Positions 9,896 through 12,850 of a stretch of DNA of 32,857 nt are shown here, piece by piece. Source of the DNA: Crocinitomicaceae bacterium. GTDB taxonomy: Bacteria; Bacteroidota; Bacteroidia; Flavobacteriales_D; Crocinitomicaceae. Within the stretch, counting starts at the first letter, position 1, and each line of letters opens with the position of its first letter. A program made the position numbers and the translations under genes. The notes under the pieces were generated by a model. It was not told where the DNA came from and made no database searches. It was given only the letters and a program-made list of their open reading frames with translations. The DNA is taken from contig QKAV01000214.1 of the NCBI GenBank assembly GCA_003247185.1, forward strand, positions 1 to 32,857. The letters are read 5' to 3'.

Positions 9896-11041
9896 CTAAG
9901 CTTCTTCGGTTACTTGTTGCTGTGCAGCGATGGATTGTATAATTCCCAGTGCCACGGCGGTCATGATTAGCGCGGAACCTCCCATGGCTAATAAGGGCAT
10001 ATTTTGACCTGTAACCGGAAAGATTCCGGTGCATACCAGCATGTTTACACTGGCCTGCGTGAGCATCAGAATCCCAATCCCGATACTTACATAGGTTTCA
10101 AAATCGTTTTTGGCATTTAATCCGATTCGGATAATGCGATAGAGCAGGATCAGATAGATCAGGATGAGTATGATGGAGGAGATAAGTCCGAATTCTTCCA
10201 CAAAGCTCGCATAGTAGAAGTCGGCATAGGCCTCCGGTATGTATGATTTCAGTTCTCCGTCGCCGACACCTTTTCCGAAAACAGATCCGGAATAAATGGC
10301 CAGTTCGGCGTTCATGGATTGGGCATTGGCGAGAACGTCCGTTTCGTCATTAATCTTGTTGAAGATCCTGTTTTCCCAGGTTTCATATCGGGGTAACAGG
10401 TTCAGATCCGGTGCGGCTTTGTGAATCAGAACGATGACTGCCAATAATGCAATTCCTCCGCCGATCAGACTGAAGATCTTTGAGAAAGGAACCTGACCAA
10501 TAAACATTAAAGTAAGGCTGATAGCAAACAGTAGTGCTGCTGTTGAAAAGTTATCTTTTACGATCAATCCACAAATAACAATAACAGGGATTACTACTGG
10601 TATAAAGCCTTCTTTCCAATTCGAGAACTGTGCTTTCTTTTTTACAAGCAATCGGGACAGATAGATGATCAGTGCAAGTTTTGCGAAATCGGAAGATTGA
10701 AATGTCAATCCAACAAAAGGTATTTTTACCCATCTTCCGGCATCATTTACTTTCATTCCGAAGAAGAAGGTGAACAACATCAGGCCAATTGCCAAATAGT
10801 AGGCAAATTTGGAAAGCTGTGAAATGTACTTCGGATCTCTGCGATGAATCCAATACATGGCGCCAAGCGAAATGGCAACGTAGATCAGGTGTTTGAACAG
10901 GTATTTAAAAGGAGTTCCTCCTTCAACCTTAACCAGAATCGGTACAAAACTATAAACCGTAACAAGAGAGAATGCCAACATAATTAATGTTAGTATCCAG
11001 ATCACGCGATCGCCCTTGAGATGGTTTAAAAATTGTTGCAT
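9896..11041 (-). CDS. ftsW: SEDS peptidoglycan glycosyltransferase FtsW
   Basis: A 381-aa polytopic membrane protein of the SEDS family that polymerises lipid II at the septum with its partner FtsI. Around ten hydrophobic segments are visible. Family signatures include NDAGRWVKIP (99-108), QSSDFAKL (115-122, with Asp where many members have Glu), the KDNFSTAALL loop and the extracytoplasmic stretch GSVFGKGVGDGELKSYIPEA with YADFYYASFVEEFG. Asp274 in that stretch aligns with the proposed catalytic Asp of FtsW/RodA. FtsW rather than RodA is inferred from the dcw context. Its ATG is 1 nt after the stop of the preceding small gene (TAA-C-ATG). Confidence 0.96.
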   Translation of the reverse strand: MQQFLNHLKGDRVIWILTLIMLAFSLVTVYSFVPILVKVEGGTPFKYLFKHLIYVAISLGAMYWIHRRDPKYISQLSKFAYYLAIGLMLFTFFFGMKVNDAGRWVKIPFVGLTFQSSDFAKLALIIYLSRLLVKKKAQFSNWKEGFIPVVIPVIVICGLIVKDNFSTAALLFAISLTLMFIGQVPFSKIFSLIGGGIALLAVIVLIHKAAPDLNLLPRYETWENRIFNKINDETDVLANAQSMNAELAIYSGSVFGKGVGDGELKSYIPEAYADFYYASFVEEFGLISSIILILIYLILLYRIIRIGLNAKNDFETYVSIGIGILMLTQASVNMLVCTGIFPVTGQNMPLLAMGGSALIMTAVALGIIQSIAAQQQVTEEA

Positions 11042-11042
11042 G

Positions 11043-11504
11043 TTATCCGATCAATCGTTCAAATTCTTCAAGTTCCTTTGCTGAAAATTCACCTTCGGTA
11101 GAAAAGAGTAGAACCATTTTTTGTCCTGCCCAGCTTTCTCTTACTTTCATAGCAGACTCAATGCTTCCGGTAGCAATGACTGTCTTTAACTGATCGATCA
11201 GTTCTACTTTAAAGTTGATCTGTGATCGGTCATAGATCAGGGCAGCCTCGATCTTTCCAATCGTTTCCGGATAGTATGTTGTCGTACAGCGGATCTGTTC
11301 GTGTTTCCCGATCCATATTACGGGAAAGGGGAAGGAACTGATCATAGTCGATAGTTTATCGAAGTGCGGATTGGGCCAGGAAAAAACATCCATGCCTTCT
11401 CTCTTTCCAAGACCTTGAAGGTCATTGTTAACGACAGAACGCAATTGTTCTCTGCGTTGTTCGATAAGACGATCAACTTTTGAAGTTGTGGTGGTCTTTT
11501 TCAT
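11043..11504 (-). CDS. Small unassigned dcw protein resembling a stand-alone MurD C-terminal domain
   Basis: A 153-aa soluble protein without signal peptide or membrane segment. I do not recognise a named family. Residues 1-40 are charged and probably helical (VDRLIEQRREQLR). From residue 61 the sequence parallels the C-terminal domain of MurD encoded just upstream: PVIWI (61-65) matches PTVWI (346-350), KIEAALI matches KVKAIVC, GSIESAM (113-119) matches GSAMEAV, and VLLFS (131-135) matches VLLSP (418-422). Distances between islands agree within one residue (W to GS 49 versus 50; GS to VLL 18 versus 19). The catalytic DKG and SPACASFD motifs of MurD are not preserved, so ligase activity is not expected. 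It starts 2 nt after murD and ends 1 nt before ftsW, so it is expressed with both. Homology is inferred by eye; a role in regulating or scaffolding precursor synthesis is speculation. Confidence 0.8.
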   Translation of the reverse strand: MKKTTTTSKVDRLIEQRREQLRSVVNNDLQGLGKREGMDVFSWPNPHFDKLSTMISSFPFPVIWIGKHEQIRCTTTYYPETIGKIEAALIYDRSQINFKVELIDQLKTVIATGSIESAMKVRESWAGQKMVLLFSTEGEFSAKELEEFERLIG

Positions 11505-11506
11505 GA

Positions 11507-12850
11507 TTAAAGCGCTCGAACTGCTTTTTTGAACTCGTTTCCTCTTTCTTCGTAGTTTTCGAACAGGTCAAAACTTGCACATGCCGGAGAAAGCAATACC
11601 GTCTCATCTTTTTTAGCCAGACGATATCCGTAAGCAACAGCTTCCATTGCTGATCCAGCTTCATAGATTTCAGGAATAACTCCTTTGAAGGCTTCGATGA
11701 TCTTTTTGTTGTCTTTACCCAGACAAACGATCGCTTTTACTTTGGATTGAACCAATTCCATCAGTTCGGAATAGTCGTTTCCTTTGTCAACGCCCCCAAC
11801 GATCCATACGGTTGGTTTTTCCATGCTTTCTAATGCGAACCACGTAGAGTTTACATTGGTAGCTTTGGAGTCGTTGATGAATTCAATACCGTTTACTTTG
11901 GCAACGAATTCGAGGCGGTGTTCAACATTTACGAAGTCACTGAGACTTTCGCGTAATACATCTTTTCTGATCTCAAGAATGCGTGCAGTGATTCCTGACG
12001 CCAATGAGTTGGCAGCGTTATGCTTGCCTTTGAGTGCTAAATCGTGGATTGACATAGTGAATTGATCTTTTATGTTTATTGTTATTTGTTCCTTGTTGAG
12101 GTAACCGCCTACTTCAACTTCTTTGTTGAGTGAAAAGGCAGCTGTTTGTGCGGCTATCCCGATCTGTCCGAGATGTGCCATAATGATTGGATCATCAGCA
12201 TTGTAGATGAACCAGGAGTTGCTGTCCAGATTGTTGGCAATGCGAAACTTGGAGCGGACATAATTCTCCATTTTATAATCGTAGCGATCCAGGTGATCCG
12301 GGGTTATGTTCAGAAGGACAGCGATGTCGGCTTTAAACTCAAACATACCATCCAACTGGAAGGAGCTGAGTTCCAGTACATACCAATCAAAGTTTTCGTT
12401 TGCAACCTGTGCGGCAAATGATTTCCCGACATTTCCTGCCAATCCCACATTAAATCCGGCCTTTTGCAGGATGTGGTAGGTTAGCATAGTTGTCGTCGTT
12501 TTACCGTTACTTCCGGTAATGCAAATGGTTTTCGCTGTGTTGAAATATCCGCCAAATTCGATTTCGGAGATTACAGGAATGCCTTTAGTTCTCGCTTCAA
12601 TGATGAAGGGAACGGTATCAGGTATTCCCGGTGACTTGATGATCAGATCCGAAGACAGAATGCGGTCAATGTCATGGCTACCTTGTTCCCATTCAATATC
12701 CAGATCCCTGATCTTTTCAATTTGCTCAGGAGCGATCGTTCTTTTGTCAGAAAGGAATACGTGCGCACCTTGTTTTTTCGCAAGAATACAGGCTCCAAGT
12801 CCGGACTCGCCGGCTCCTAAAACAACGATATGTTTGCCCCGGATGTTCAA
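11507..12850 (-). CDS. murD: UDP-N-acetylmuramoyl-L-alanine--D-glutamate ligase
   Basis: MurD adds D-Glu to UDP-MurNAc-L-Ala (447 aa). Domain 1 begins with the dinucleotide-fold motif VVLGAGESGLGA (9-20) typical of MurD. Domain 2 carries the P-loop GSNGKTTTTM (113-122), LELSSFQLD and NITPDHLDRY. Domain 3 carries EHRLEFV, NDSKATN, WIVGGVDKGNDY (DKG at 355-357) and LLSPACASFD with the YEERGNEF end, all conserved in MurD. It abuts the mraY stop directly, with its ATG beginning at the next base, and is followed after 2 nt by a small gene whose product echoes its own C-terminal domain. Confidence 0.98.
   Translation of the reverse strand: MNIRGKHIVVLGAGESGLGACILAKKQGAHVFLSDKRTIAPEQIEKIRDLDIEWEQGSHDIDRILSSDLIIKSPGIPDTVPFIIEARTKGIPVISEIEFGGYFNTAKTICITGSNGKTTTTMLTYHILQKAGFNVGLAGNVGKSFAAQVANENFDWYVLELSSFQLDGMFEFKADIAVLLNITPDHLDRYDYKMENYVRSKFRIANNLDSNSWFIYNADDPIIMAHLGQIGIAAQTAAFSLNKEVEVGGYLNKEQITINIKDQFTMSIHDLALKGKHNAANSLASGITARILEIRKDVLRESLSDFVNVEHRLEFVAKVNGIEFINDSKATNVNSTWFALESMEKPTVWIVGGVDKGNDYSELMELVQSKVKAIVCLGKDNKKIIEAFKGVIPEIYEAGSAMEAVAYGYRLAKKDETVLLSPACASFDLFENYEERGNEFKKAVRAL

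Follow-up and report, generated by a model that had tools for sequence, protein, structure and literature searches.

An old extra gene of the dcw cluster in many Bacteroidetes, derived on sequence evidence from one domain of MurD

A small gene in the murD–ftsW gap

Few bacterial gene clusters are as well studied as dcw, and MurD, its UDP-N-acetylmuramoyl-L-alanine:D-glutamate ligase, is an essential enzyme and a drug target, composed of a UDP-binding domain, an ATPase domain with a P-loop, and a third domain (domain 3). The window, by which we mean the whole 32,857-nucleotide stretch of Crocinitomicaceae DNA analysed here, holds these genes in the order ftsI-like, murE, mraY, murD, an additional open reading frame, ftsW, murG, murC, ftsQ-like, ftsA and ftsZ, with the genes other than murD named by eye from their sequence and order. 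The additional frame runs on the minus strand from an ATG at 11,504 to a stop at 11,043 and occupies the murD–ftsW gap: read along that strand, the murD stop is followed by 2 nt, the frame, 1 nt and the ATG of ftsW. The features of the locus are these:

9,896–11,041, minus strand: ftsW, the downstream neighbour, identified by eye on its sequence and place; the order is kept in relatives
11,043–11,504, minus strand: gene of 153 amino acids, a degenerate free-standing paralogue of MurD domain 3 (open reading frame, relatives, profile matches)
11,507–12,850, minus strand: murD, an intact ligase with the motifs HRLE, NDSKATN, DKG and SPACASF, and the parent of the duplication (TIGR01087, E 6e-121)
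11,507–11,995, minus strand: MurD residues 286–447 plus stop, comprising the last helix of the middle domain and domain 3, approximately the segment matching the free-standing copies (tblastn and profile ranges)
11,418–11,468, minus strand: N-terminal helix of the 153-aa protein, residues 13–29, whose Arg17 aligns with MurD Arg295
11,367–11,408, minus strand: GKxxGMDxFSWxNP, a family-specific motif, residues 33–46, roughly in the place of MurD HRLE...NDSKATN
11,307–11,324, minus strand: island 1, PVIWIG, residues 61–66 (MurD PTVWIVGG)
11,235–11,255, minus strand: island 2, KIEAALI, residues 84–90 (MurD KVKAIVC; hhalign)
11,148–11,168, minus strand: island 3, GSIESAM, residues 113–119 (MurD GSAMEAV; hhalign)
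11,100–11,114, minus strand: island 4, VLLFS, residues 131–135 (paired with MurD TVLLS; hhalign), after which PACASF is lost

The first-pass annotation had described a small gene in this position, and the gene is real, with the strand and length given above and the same slot in 29 of 29 loci of the genus. These are the window's own locus and those of 28 of the 33 same-genus genomes searched; the remaining five genomes gave no match: in two of them murD and ftsW are separated by 34 and 50 nt, and the other three yielded no murD. Searched against its own draft genome (77% complete), the protein matches only itself, and the sole match from a contig search, in a Bacteroidetes MAG (L031), looks like the same contig as one already in the set (G010:C48). 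We found no description of the gene in the open-access literature searched; an earlier mention is possible in subscription papers and genome annotations, which lie outside that scope. Several of the sampled families are without a copy, which may explain why it has gone unnoticed, and one dcw study counted tandem copies as a single gene (PMC8871954), which could hide the copy.

Kinship with domain 3 of MurD

The gene descends, almost certainly, from a duplicated MurD domain 3 together with the helix preceding it, the link between the window family and MurD running only through the family profile or via free-standing copies of the domain in other families. Compared one-to-one with MurD by BLASTP, the window protein received no support (the best piece, at E 1.4, was located elsewhere); Pfam and NCBIfam contained no match to it at E<=10, and none of 16 relatives matched Mur_ligase_C (PF02875) at E<=0.1. 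The gathering cut-off of PF02875 is not reached by the window protein, while two of three scanned copies pass it and the third falls 0.1 bit short. A MurD domain-3 profile gave the window protein an E of 0.011, level with shuffled sequences, and with the MurD domain-3 HMM an E<0.01 was reached by 14 of the 29 genus members taken singly and by 22 of 580 shuffles, a result barely above the controls.

Comparisons between whole families were clearer. Profile–profile alignment with hhalign, the check that the first-pass annotation had put forward, gave a score of 40.3 (E 4.8e-6, probability 86) for 40 family members against an alignment of MurD domain 3, above the maximum of 22.3 from 100 column shuffles and the 13.2 of the reversed alignment; with MurD domain 3 as a single sequence the probability was only 10 (E 0.003). 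Against an alignment of the copies the window family reached E 2.2e-13. A copy profile (A3) built from 13 free-standing copies, without any row of the window's family, matched the window protein at E 5.2e-10 and all 29 genus members at E<0.01, 24 of them below 1e-3, while among 580 shuffles of the 29 genus proteins the best E was 2.6e-4, with three below 1e-3. In the other direction, the genus-family profile without copies retrieved the copies in ten genomes from family f3, with E between 4.2e-7 and 0.0084. When 11 single domains of window proteins were compared, including the C-termini of MurC and MurE, MurD domain 3 alone aligned over its full length, scoring 23.5 over 138 columns, with the other ten at 9.2–16.6. 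The first and middle domains of MurD gave no profile match to the 153-aa protein, leaving domain 3 as the only one represented.

The window's own family (f1) also contains intermediates. As a set, L069, L074 and L107 align with the copies at 3.3e-18 and with the family at 1.4e-15; singly, L074 and L107 match both the MurD and the copy profiles, the latter at 1e-24, with L069 weaker (0.001 to the copy profile). Scanned against PF02875, L074 gave no match.

Four islands of similarity had been paired by eye in the first pass, between residues 61–135 of the protein and MurD residues 346–422. In the hhalign pairing, displayed with an orthologous MurD, PVIWI/PTVWI, KIEAALI/KVKAIVC and GSIESAM/GSAMEAV are joined in the same way, but VLLFS is set against TVLLS, a shift of one residue from the VLLSP originally chosen. 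The two segments do run parallel, but the homology is longer than was proposed, spanning profile columns 9–155.

The identity of the copies can be read from databases. At E<=0.01 the 13-copy profile matches nothing in the PDB but MurD chains (1e0d and its related entries), over the domain and at 1.1e-32 to 4.2e-25, and in NCBIfam the copies match only TIGR01087 at the same threshold (13 of 13 members), where one score, 129 bits, lies below the family cut-off of 212 because the sequence is a fragment, as expected. The copies differ from MurD in having no N-terminal or ATPase domain, in having mostly lost the lysine for D-Glu, and in being a separate gene beside an intact murD. The genus profile (A2) gave no significant match in the PDB (best E 0.16), and its three matches in viral contigs were to a pattern, with no relative among them.

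AlphaFold2, given the window protein and one close ortholog (two rows only), returned an uninformative, low-confidence model (pLDDT 46, pTM 0.38), which drew no Foldseek match at E<=0.001 and two VIA-align rows of Z about 2, neither of them MurD. Adding two rows of MurD domain 3, an input that is still few rows and biased towards MurD, and in which MAFFT placed the MurD rows differently from the profile alignment, raised the pLDDT to 53; this second model, equally uninformative, was likewise without a Foldseek match at E<=0.001, and its listed VIA rows (Z<3) were mainly nucleotidyltransferases and not MurD.

Distribution and descent of the copies

In G038, a genome of family f3 in the same order, the frame in the murD–ftsW slot is a plain second MurD C-terminal domain, with which the window MurD shares 42% identity over residues 290–447, besides the adjoining full murD. 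Free-standing copies stand directly after murD in families f2, f3, f4, f5, f8, f10 and f11 of the order, and occur in many further families of the class, which we infer to be Bacteroidia. A census of the slot, also called for by the first pass, took frames of 95–230 aa between murD and ftsW, with repeat loci removed, and counted those that reached E<1e-3 with the profile of MurD domain 3, of the copies or of the genus, E being that of a single comparison. Matching frames were found in 63 genomes of 26 family groups, in 60 through the MurD domain-3 or copy profile, and four frames were unmatched; gene starts of relatives were picked mechanically, and the slot frames measure 99–212 aa as called. 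Two matching slot frames are present in each of f2, f4, f5 and f8, the second of f5 being weak (3e-6).

Tandem pairs of domain-3 copies in the slot can be seen at loci L080, L084, L085 and L081. The second copies of f2, f4 and f8 have an N-terminal SFTIHK/KYTIHK stretch in common and group in the tree, which suggests one second duplication.

Across the class, 243 of 247 genomes matched the copy profile, mostly via MurD itself, and 60 had at least two matches by hand count; this figure is a rough guide and probably low, because one such genome (G623) owes its matches to a murD split by contig ends, and degenerate copies escape the search. The window's own genome shows one match in this survey, its degenerate copy being among those that escape. 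A sample of other classes in the phylum had a second match in two of the 149 genomes counted; both (G651 and G798) were rejected as copies, one being a murD truncated at the edge of a contig and the other a murD disrupted by a frame change. Each of ten outgroup loci had a single match to MurD domain 3 and no copy, with murD and ftsW separated by -21 to 116 nt at nine of them and by 885 nt at one. Class genomes that lack the copy have the two genes at most 65 nt apart in 25 of 31 cases (L090, L094 and a repeat left out), and in one of the other six, G630, a 99-aa frame in the slot matches after all. L094, from genome G135, has a copy with an internal stop codon, either a recent pseudogene or a sequencing error.

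Where present in the window's family, the gene typically lies within a few nt of ftsW. The copy is absent in some members of the family and the genus, in which murD and ftsW nearly touch, and it is therefore dispensable. In G440 the dcw cluster is broken, with a copy directly upstream of ftsW (L178, L180) and murD on another contig. Genomes G403, G516 and G440 carry extra divergent free-standing domain-3 genes outside dcw, beside unrelated genes (L176, L177 and L179), and thus the domain is able to leave the cluster.

In a tree of 127 rows rooted on other classes, 49 copies and the three intermediates form one group (SH-aLRT 82) beside the MurD of the class, two of the three intermediates sitting on very long branches; in a tree of 45 rows, 22 copies fall on one side of a branch (78/64). 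Both trees leave out the 40 degenerate f1 rows, that of the window included. A separate duplication in each lineage was rejected by the AU test for f3 (p 6e-4), f16 (2e-5) and f39 (0.027) but not for f24 (p 0.28), the groups having been picked after the first tree was viewed. Thus, with moderate support for the clade, there was probably one old duplication in the class followed by many losses, and the window gene is a degenerate end of this old line of duplicates. The first-pass annotation had proposed that part of murD was duplicated and turned into a protein of its own, and the profiles, the less degraded copies in the same slot and the intermediates in the family agree with it, but the event was probably neither local nor recent. 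What the comparisons point to is an extra dcw gene, made from one MurD domain in many Bacteroidetes, that is older and more widespread than had been suggested.

On this history, a duplicate of MurD domain 3 and its helix became a gene of its own in the murD–ftsW gap, in an ancestor that many of the class's families share. The copy was then kept, lost or doubled by lineage, and its substrate-binding residues were lost stepwise, furthest in the window's family.

Residues, selection and possible roles

The residues lost and kept were read in E. coli MurD numbering, taken from the PDB chain alignment, at R302, D317, K319, T321, K348 and S415, the contact residues of domain 3 that were checked, K348 being the lysine that binds D-Glu. 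All six are kept in 94 of 96 MurD rows and in 3 of 51 copies, and K348 alone in 94 of 96 MurD rows, 6 of 51 copies and 1 of 40 rows of the window's family. In all 40 of these rows T321 is a gap and D317 is W or F; in the window protein the six columns read D, W, N, gap, I and F, an alignment that is uncertain at such a distance. This count, together with the lost PACASF, bears out the first-pass reading that the catalytic motifs have gone. The family retains the helix arginine (the MurD R295 column, which is R in 38 of 40 family rows, 45 of 51 copies and 91 of 96 MurD rows), the tryptophan of the PxxW strand (Trp64, invariant in A2), a glycine and an alanine, and has gained GKxxGMDxFSWxNP at about the position of the MurD ATP and D-Glu loop. 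Identity between copies and their own MurD domain 3 ranges from 19 to 57% (median 37, 48 comparisons), so that the stages from 57% identical to unrecognisable offer a natural series of an enzyme domain losing catalysis while being kept for something else.

The window protein would be unable to ligate alone, because it has neither the N-terminal domain nor the ATPase domain and has lost all six of the domain-3 contacts checked. We lean, by a little, towards an explanation in which an old duplicate of MurD domain 3 now serves as a non-catalytic partner of the precursor machinery. The place of the gene beside murD and ftsW, and the copy of G440 that stays with ftsW, suggest such a partner role in a precursor complex, an argument limited in that slot conservation could be inherited gene order, that the census was confined to the slot and that G440 is one event. 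In this scheme a small non-catalytic partner would be made together with MurD and FtsW, its domain-3 surface would be reused to dock on MurD or on the MurG, MraY or FtsW of a cytoplasmic precursor complex, and the docked copy might tune or position D-Glu ligation. For the protein-binding, non-catalytic role in itself, which is predicted from sequence, we see about an even chance. In other bacteria Mur ligases are bound by MurG and MreB, and FtsW has been proposed to be in such a complex (PMC4929429, PMC6420597). A bolder and rather doubtful version would make the detached domain a regulator in trans in many Bacteroidota, competing with or propping open the closing domain of MurD and passing control to FtsW, the degenerate forms keeping only the docking surface; if true, this would couple D-Glu ligation to septal wall synthesis. 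In any event the copy offers a definite candidate for what might connect precursor synthesis to the divisome in Bacteroidota.

Alternatively, the free-standing domain may have kept a ligand, be it D-Glu, the ATP edge or a UDP-precursor, and act either as a sensor or, in trans, as the third domain of MurD or another Mur ligase. Copies outside the window's family often keep N326 (96%), D327 (45/51), T331 (40/51), S421 (50/51) and S426 (42/51; window MurD numbering), and three copies from f24 keep all six contact residues. However, the rarity of K348 among the copies and the replacement of most contact residues in the window's family make ligand binding unlikely, as does the near-complete conservation of all six in MurD itself, by which the cell already has a working domain. 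The most intact copies being those of f24, we considered this family as a split enzyme and dropped the idea: its MurD keeps HRLE, NDSKATN, DKG and SPACASF and thus needs no second domain.

Another way to view the gene is as a functionless remnant of murD in slow decay. Consistent with this, it evolves fast (73% identity where MurD has 89%), is absent from many relatives and in G135 is interrupted by a stop. However, dN/dS was 0.05–0.23 in 11 of 13 close pairs of relatives (dS being saturated in the other two), compared with 0.03–0.10 for murD, values that are rough since dS was often above 1; and as the window's own pair (L001/L002) is one of those saturated, selection is shown on relatives and not directly on the window gene. 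Since the slot also holds open frames in 26 family groups, and a new motif has become conserved in the window's family, selection seems to be maintaining the gene, and a mere remnant is very improbable. That an unrelated small protein replaced the copy in the window's family, the likeness being positional only, would fit the missing BLAST, Pfam and MurD-profile similarity and the 0 of 16 members matching Mur_ligase_C, but is hardly credible given the profile links in both directions, the match of the window protein to A3, the intermediates within the family and the shuffle and decoy controls.

Besides MurD itself, the nearest known systems are MurT and the coupled Mur enzymes. MurT, which acts with GatD, is a catalytic protein that retains the ATP-binding middle domain. 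Like the present gene, it is a paralogue reported to stem from a murD duplication, placed in Terrabacteria (PMC11915815), whereas the gene described here is domain 3 alone and in Bacteroidota. The MurE–MurF fusion and the MurG scaffold are cases of precursor enzymes physically coupled in or around dcw (PMC6420597, PMC4929429); they involve whole catalytic enzymes, in contrast to the lone non-catalytic domain here.

Some families show changes in MurD itself. In f24 (L146, L147, L159) MurD is without the usual helix, LEIRKDVLRES in the window, while the neighbouring copy keeps a similar one; this MurD falls outside most others of the class in the 127-row tree, and its replacement by a foreign one is possible. 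In f21 (L140, L142), and also at L169, K348 of MurD is changed and a lysine is found instead in the SPxCKSF loop, perhaps a compensating shift.
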